39,907 bases of DNA from Thermoprotei archaeon (GTDB lineage Archaea; Thermoproteota; Thermoprotei; QMSL01): contig QMSP01000018.1 in the NCBI GenBank assembly GCA_003650925.1, positions 1-39,907 on the forward strand, written 5' to 3'. The stretch's first letter is position 1, and every line of letters starts with the position of its first letter. Under the pieces are notes generated by a model. That model saw nothing but the letters and a program-made list of their open reading frames with translations. It was not told the DNA's origin and searched no databases. This document shows, piece by piece, positions 9,359-39,098 of the stretch. The translations under genes and the position numbers were made by a program.

Positions 9359-9414
9359 TTATTGTGGATAATTATGGACTGAGAAAGAGAGGATGCTTTA
9401 AGTCTTCATCAGCA

Positions 9415-9463
9415 TCAGCGAAGGACGCGATCATCATTTCTCAGAGTTTGCACCCTTCATCAT
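9415..9463 (-). ncRNA. C/D box sRNA, D' guide predicted to target tRNA-Ala(UGC) wobble U34
   Basis: On the minus strand: box C ATGATGA (9457-9463), 12-nt guide, box D' CTGA (9441-9444), GAA, box C' ATGATGA (9431-9437), 12-nt guide, box D CTGA (9415-9418). The 12-nt spacing of both guides is canonical for archaeal 2'-O-methylation guides. The D' guide AGGGTGCAAACT pairs with GTTTGCACCC in the anticodon arm of tRNA-Ala(UGC) at 39053-39062 (10 Watson-Crick pairs plus one G-U). The fifth nucleotide from D' faces U34. The D guide TCGCGTCCTTCG would target CGAAGGACGCGA, possibly in 23S rRNA, which is outside the window. No clear terminal stem is seen. It lies in the 165-bp gap after TFB1 and downstream of thi4. 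Confidence 0.85.
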
Positions 9464-9523
9464 TCGTAGTTTTATTATGAATTTTAGGTTAAAAATCTTC
9501 TCAACATAAGTTTGAATTCAGTT

Positions 9524-39021: not shown

Positions 39022-39098
<77 letters not shown>

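Follow-up and report, generated by a model that had tools for sequence, protein, structure and literature searches.

In archaea, guided methylation of the wobble ribose has been documented for a handful of tRNAs, mostly those that need to tell close codons apart. In Pyrococcus, C/D sRNAs serve nucleotide 34 of tRNA-Leu(CAA), tRNA-Leu(UAA), tRNA-Met and tRNA-Trp, and in Pyrobaculum 16% of the guides have a predicted tRNA target, position 34 included (review PMC7994747). In Sulfolobus acidocaldarius, a C/D guide is predicted for U34 of tRNA-Gln(UUG), and methylation of that uridine was observed by mass spectrometry (PMC7668247). Outside the archaea, the human RNAs SNORD97/SCARNA97 are reported to direct the formation of Cm34 in elongator tRNA-Met (PMC6601510).

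The locus described here lies in a window of 39,907 nucleotides, which is the whole stretch of DNA that was analysed, from a Thermoprotei archaeon of which the assembly comprises 2.14 Mb and is 98.6% complete. Its minus strand harbors a box C/D sRNA with a guide predicted to address U34 of tRNA-Ala(UGC). As in the S. acidocaldarius tRNA-Gln(UUG) system, the guide is aimed at a wobble uridine; the tRNA-Gln target belongs to a two-codon set, whereas tRNA-Ala serves a four-codon box. The nucleotide 34 sRNAs of Pyrococcus are likewise C/D guides directed to the first anticodon position, but their targets exclude Ala(UGC) (PMC7994747), and the Pyrococcus Trp guide is located inside a tRNA intron, unlike the present arrangement of a separate sRNA gene and an intron-free tRNA. 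With human SNORD97/SCARNA97 the locus shares the use, here predicted, of a C/D RNP for methylating a wobble ribose, while the human system is a eukaryotic case in which two RNAs from different nuclear bodies are reported to cooperate on a cytidine. For tRNA-Ala(UGC) itself, the passages of the S. acidocaldarius paper that deal with it name ac4C40 but not Um34 (PMC7668247). This tRNA is probably a new target for a well-known machinery. An earlier, sequence-only reading of the window knew of no established guided methylation at nucleotide 34 of tRNA-Ala(UGC), which agrees with PMC7994747 and with the passages of PMC7668247 on this tRNA.

Architecture of the sRNA and pairing of its guides

The sRNA core, from box C to box D, occupies positions 9463-9415 on the minus strand and has the textbook order C, guide, D′, spacer, C′, guide, D (5′ to 3′, ATGATGA-AGGGTGCAAACT-CTGA-GAA-ATGATGA-TCGCGTCCTTCG-CTGA). 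Every box agrees with the archaeal consensus (RUGAUGA for C, CUGA for D′ and D) and stands in the correct place: box C (ATGATGA) at 9457-9463, box D′ (CTGA) at 9441-9444, box C′ (ATGATGA) at 9431-9437 and box D (CTGA) at 9415-9418. The D′ guide AGGGTGCAAACT (9445-9456) and the D guide TCGCGTCCTTCG (9419-9430) are both 12 nt long and the D′-C′ spacer GAA (9438-9440) measures 3 nt, in line with the guide length of about 10-12 nt and the short spacer that characterize these RNAs. The element is situated in an intergenic gap (9359-9523) flanked by ORFs on opposite strands. A TTTTTAA sequence noticed by eye at 9489-9495 on the minus strand may be a TATA element, as it precedes the presumed 5′ end of the RNA by about 26 nt. 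The C-D′-C′ layout is matched 52 times in the host genome, a number that includes overlapping readings of one RNA, versus 0 times with the reversed pattern, which indicates that the sRNA is one member of an ordinary large set. Its assignment rests on the boxes, on this count and on an ortholog in a relative (G001, see below); an Rfam search at the gathering score did not report it. There is also complementarity between the two guides of the sRNA (GAAGGGUGC and GCGUCCUUC, G-U counted, between 9460 and 9420 on the minus strand), and both stretches are retained in G001. The overall folding of the sRNA is no better than that of shuffled sequences.

The intron-free tRNA-Ala(UGC) gene is annotated in the same window at 39022-39098 on the plus strand. 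Positions 1-11 of the D′ guide align with nucleotides 30-40 of this tRNA (GGTTTGCACCC, 39052-39062), with a G-U pair at nucleotide 30 followed by 10 contiguous Watson-Crick pairs (31-40). The fifth nucleotide upstream of box D′ (A5, 9449) is placed opposite U34 (39056), the nucleotide predicted to be 2′-O-methylated. For comparison with other tRNAs, 40 Rfam tRNA matches from the whole genome were re-read with ARAGORN, both spliced and unspliced, giving a set that is probably short of a few tRNAs. The next-best tRNA in this set forms 8 pairs with the D′ guide, G-U included, and among 74 guides parsed from the sRNAs of the genome it is the D′ guide that has the longest and best tRNA match. When guides were shuffled, 12 of 2,960 reached at least 10 Watson-Crick pairs with any of the genome's tRNAs and 0 of 2,960 did so at position 34. 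As to the tRNA genes themselves, two to which ARAGORN gave the labels Stop(TTA) and Lys(CTT) (L242 and L247) apparently have introns before the anticodon, and the one labelled Stop(TTA) resembles tRNA-Lys(UUU).

The sequence-only reading had proposed canonical boxes C, D′, C′ and D with two 12-nt guides, 10 contiguous Watson-Crick pairs and one G-U with the tRNA-Ala anticodon arm at 39052-39062, and selection of U34 by the rule of the fifth nucleotide. All of this is borne out by the minus-strand sequence and the pairing. The search for better targets that it had suggested, run here against the tRNAs of the genome, yielded none better than tRNA-Ala(UGC), and what it identified as guide RNA, target tRNA and methylation site is further supported by the covariation of guide and tRNA across genomes described below.

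The D guide contains a core, GCGTCCTTCG, which according to cross-genome comparison is kept in G001, G048 and G052. It is common to sRNAs of four families (L033, L045, L032 and the window, 9419-9430) in which the partner guides differ, and this sharing implies a common target. The 16S-23S regions of G005 and G027 and the host tRNA set offered no convincing rRNA or tRNA target for the D guide. A 16S site near GGAGGACCACC fits the guide of G027 but the pairing breaks at position 9 for the window guide, and the best candidate for a tRNA D-arm target, tRNA-Gly(GCC), matches weakly, its 9 pairs being accompanied by a mismatch close to box D; both assignments were rejected. An LSU search found no 23S rRNA of the host lineage in the assembly, which is no proof of absence since the same search misses a control archaeon.

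Occurrence in relatives and covariation with tRNA-Ala

Among the genomes compared, the nearest relative with a copy of the sRNA is G001, which belongs to another family of the same order and matches record JAGGXX010000019.1 of Thermoprotei archaeon isolate AUK163. Its D′ guide is identical (12/12), its D guide agrees at 10/12 positions, and the anticodon arm of its tRNA-Ala is the same as that of the host. Gene order is not conserved, since the surroundings of the G001 copy lack both genes that flank the window sRNA. When named genomes were scanned for the guide core flanked by consensus boxes, 27 records were returned, 9 of them from Thermoproteota, including 4 Ignisphaera assemblies. Other archaeal records with the D′ core are Sulfolobales SKYB66, Thermoprotei B45_G16 and B82_G16, and Thermoproteota DRTY-1, and the remaining 18 of the 27, which are bacterial, are most likely chance matches.

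For the Ignisphaera class, 229 genomes were scanned with a pattern of fixed TGCAAR, two free letters and CTGA. Of the 55 matches, 23 also have GG and C fitting the stem-side nucleotides 38, 39 and 31, which were free in the pattern, compared to about 1 expected, although the binomial figure for this excess overstates its significance because related genomes share ancestry and are not independent. The distance between the boxes is exactly 12 nt in all 23 stem-matching guides versus 8 of the 32 others. Many of the scanned genomes gave no match with these search patterns, which are strict. We set aside 14-nt matches such as GGGATGTGCAAACG in G284-G289, because they do not agree with the stem and look like part of an open coding sequence.

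The guide is not confined to one slot. It occupies the first (D′) slot in the window, G001, G044 and G060, and is placed before the last D box in the Ignisphaera-type genomes. In several of the latter, the D′ guide resembles GTTTGAACCCGGGA, which by eye is the complement of the common tRNA T-arm, and the second guides of G044 and G060 (CTCGAACCCCG, GGTCGAACCCCT) are, again by eye, T-arm complements as well. Such partner guides would fit RNAs devoted to tRNA. A T-arm-complement guide beside the Ala guide was seen at L173, L187, L284, L093 and L120, in Ignisphaera-like genomes and genomes of family f4.

Guide and tRNA vary together. A uridine at position 32 of the tRNA goes with an A at guide position 3 in the host genome (G000) and in G001, G081, G083, G085 and G086. 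The guide of G147 has a G at this position; C32 was predicted from it beforehand and was then found (CTCGG CTTGCAC CCGAG). In G060, a member of family f4, the tRNA stem reads CCGCC/GGCGG and the guide GCCGTGCAAGGT forms 11 Watson-Crick pairs with it, the changes at nucleotides 31, 32, 39 and 40 all being compensated in the guide. The tRNA gene of G060 has an intron after nucleotide 37 and, since the first letters of this intron repeat those of the exon, the guide fits both the precursor and the mature tRNA. When guides of one main lineage were combined with tRNAs of another, the pairing decreased in most cases. Pairing between guide and target is thus kept across species, with the exception of G084, where an A3 guide faces C32 with one mismatch. 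The pairing is very probably real because the guides of the relatives change in step with their own tRNA-Ala, and this comparative evidence is stronger than the result with shuffled guides. In families f7 and f9, guides of the form GCTTGCAAGG fit their own tRNA-Ala at 10 of 12 positions but invariably mismatch at nucleotide 38, which, like the G084 case, speaks against the proposed function. An rRNA target, suspected at first for the CTTGCAAG guides (f7, f9 and some f3), seems less likely than tRNA-Ala, as the operon of G027 lacks such a site and the fit to tRNA-Ala is better, with the one fixed mismatch.

Proposed function and alternative explanations

Judged from the sequence comparisons, the minus-strand sRNA is highly likely to be a working guide for the formation of Um34 in tRNA-Ala(UGC). 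After transcription from the minus strand, which the proposal presumes, the k-turn motifs C/D and C′/D′ should bind L7Ae and then Nop5 and fibrillarin. The D′ guide would pair with nucleotides 30-40 of tRNA-Ala(UGC), and fibrillarin would methylate the 2′-OH of U34. This pairing would probably take place on the nascent tRNA or during opening of the anticodon stem. The resulting Um34 would favour a C3′-endo sugar at the wobble base and may thereby affect the reading of GCN codons.

The D′ guide of a genuine C/D RNA could also serve another target, such as rRNA, with the tRNA match being secondary. That targets beyond those tested exist follows from the D guide having no known target, and the assembly lacks the 23S rRNA and most of the 16S rRNA of the host lineage. 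The best rRNA match in the complete operons of two relatives, however, comprises just 8-9 pairs with G-U and mismatches, and the guide changes follow those of tRNA-Ala at nucleotides 31, 32, 39 and 40, so that we consider this alternative very improbable. The pairing spans the entire anticodon loop and part of the stem, which might suit an sRNA whose main role is that of a folding chaperone or antisense RNA for tRNA-Ala, with little methylation of U34. To this explanation we assign a very slight probability, as the 12 nt preceding a consensus D or D′ box in 23 of 23 comparable guides indicate that a register for catalysis is kept. It is extremely improbable that the locus is silent or that the guide matches the tRNA by chance: no shuffled guide matches as well at nucleotide 34, the guide is conserved across families, and the prediction of C32 in G147 was confirmed.

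Guidance of Um34 in tRNA-Ala(UGC) may extend from the lineage of the window to Ignisphaera with its allies and to family f4, and perhaps also to families f7, f9 and f3. We see about an even chance that this methylation is selectively maintained across much of Thermoproteota. Its guides would then coevolve with the anticodon arm, change between the D′ and D slots and in many cases lie on one RNA with a guide matching the T-arm. If true, Um34 of tRNA-Ala(UGC) would represent a conserved four-codon-box modification that has so far escaped recognition. The host genome also encodes tRNA-Ala(CGC), and a conserved wobble guide for a four-codon box suggests a role in tRNA stability or in codon sharing with this second tRNA-Ala. 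As Ignisphaera, one of the genera with the guide, includes named species, a cultured carrier could allow direct testing.

Other possible wobble guides were noticed along the way. The D′ guide CTAGAGAGGCCC of a host sRNA (L062, G000:C1:79485-79516) is a second, weaker wobble candidate in the host genome: its 8 contiguous pairs with tRNA-Glu(CUC) are in the register that selects C34. G032 and G003 have in common a guide-like element, ATGATGA AGGGTACCAAAT CGGA (L059, L054), of which the D′ box is degenerate; an anticodon loop with the sequence UUGGUA, such as that of tRNA-Thr(GGU), would be a pairing partner of AGGGTACCAAAT, in the register for G34.
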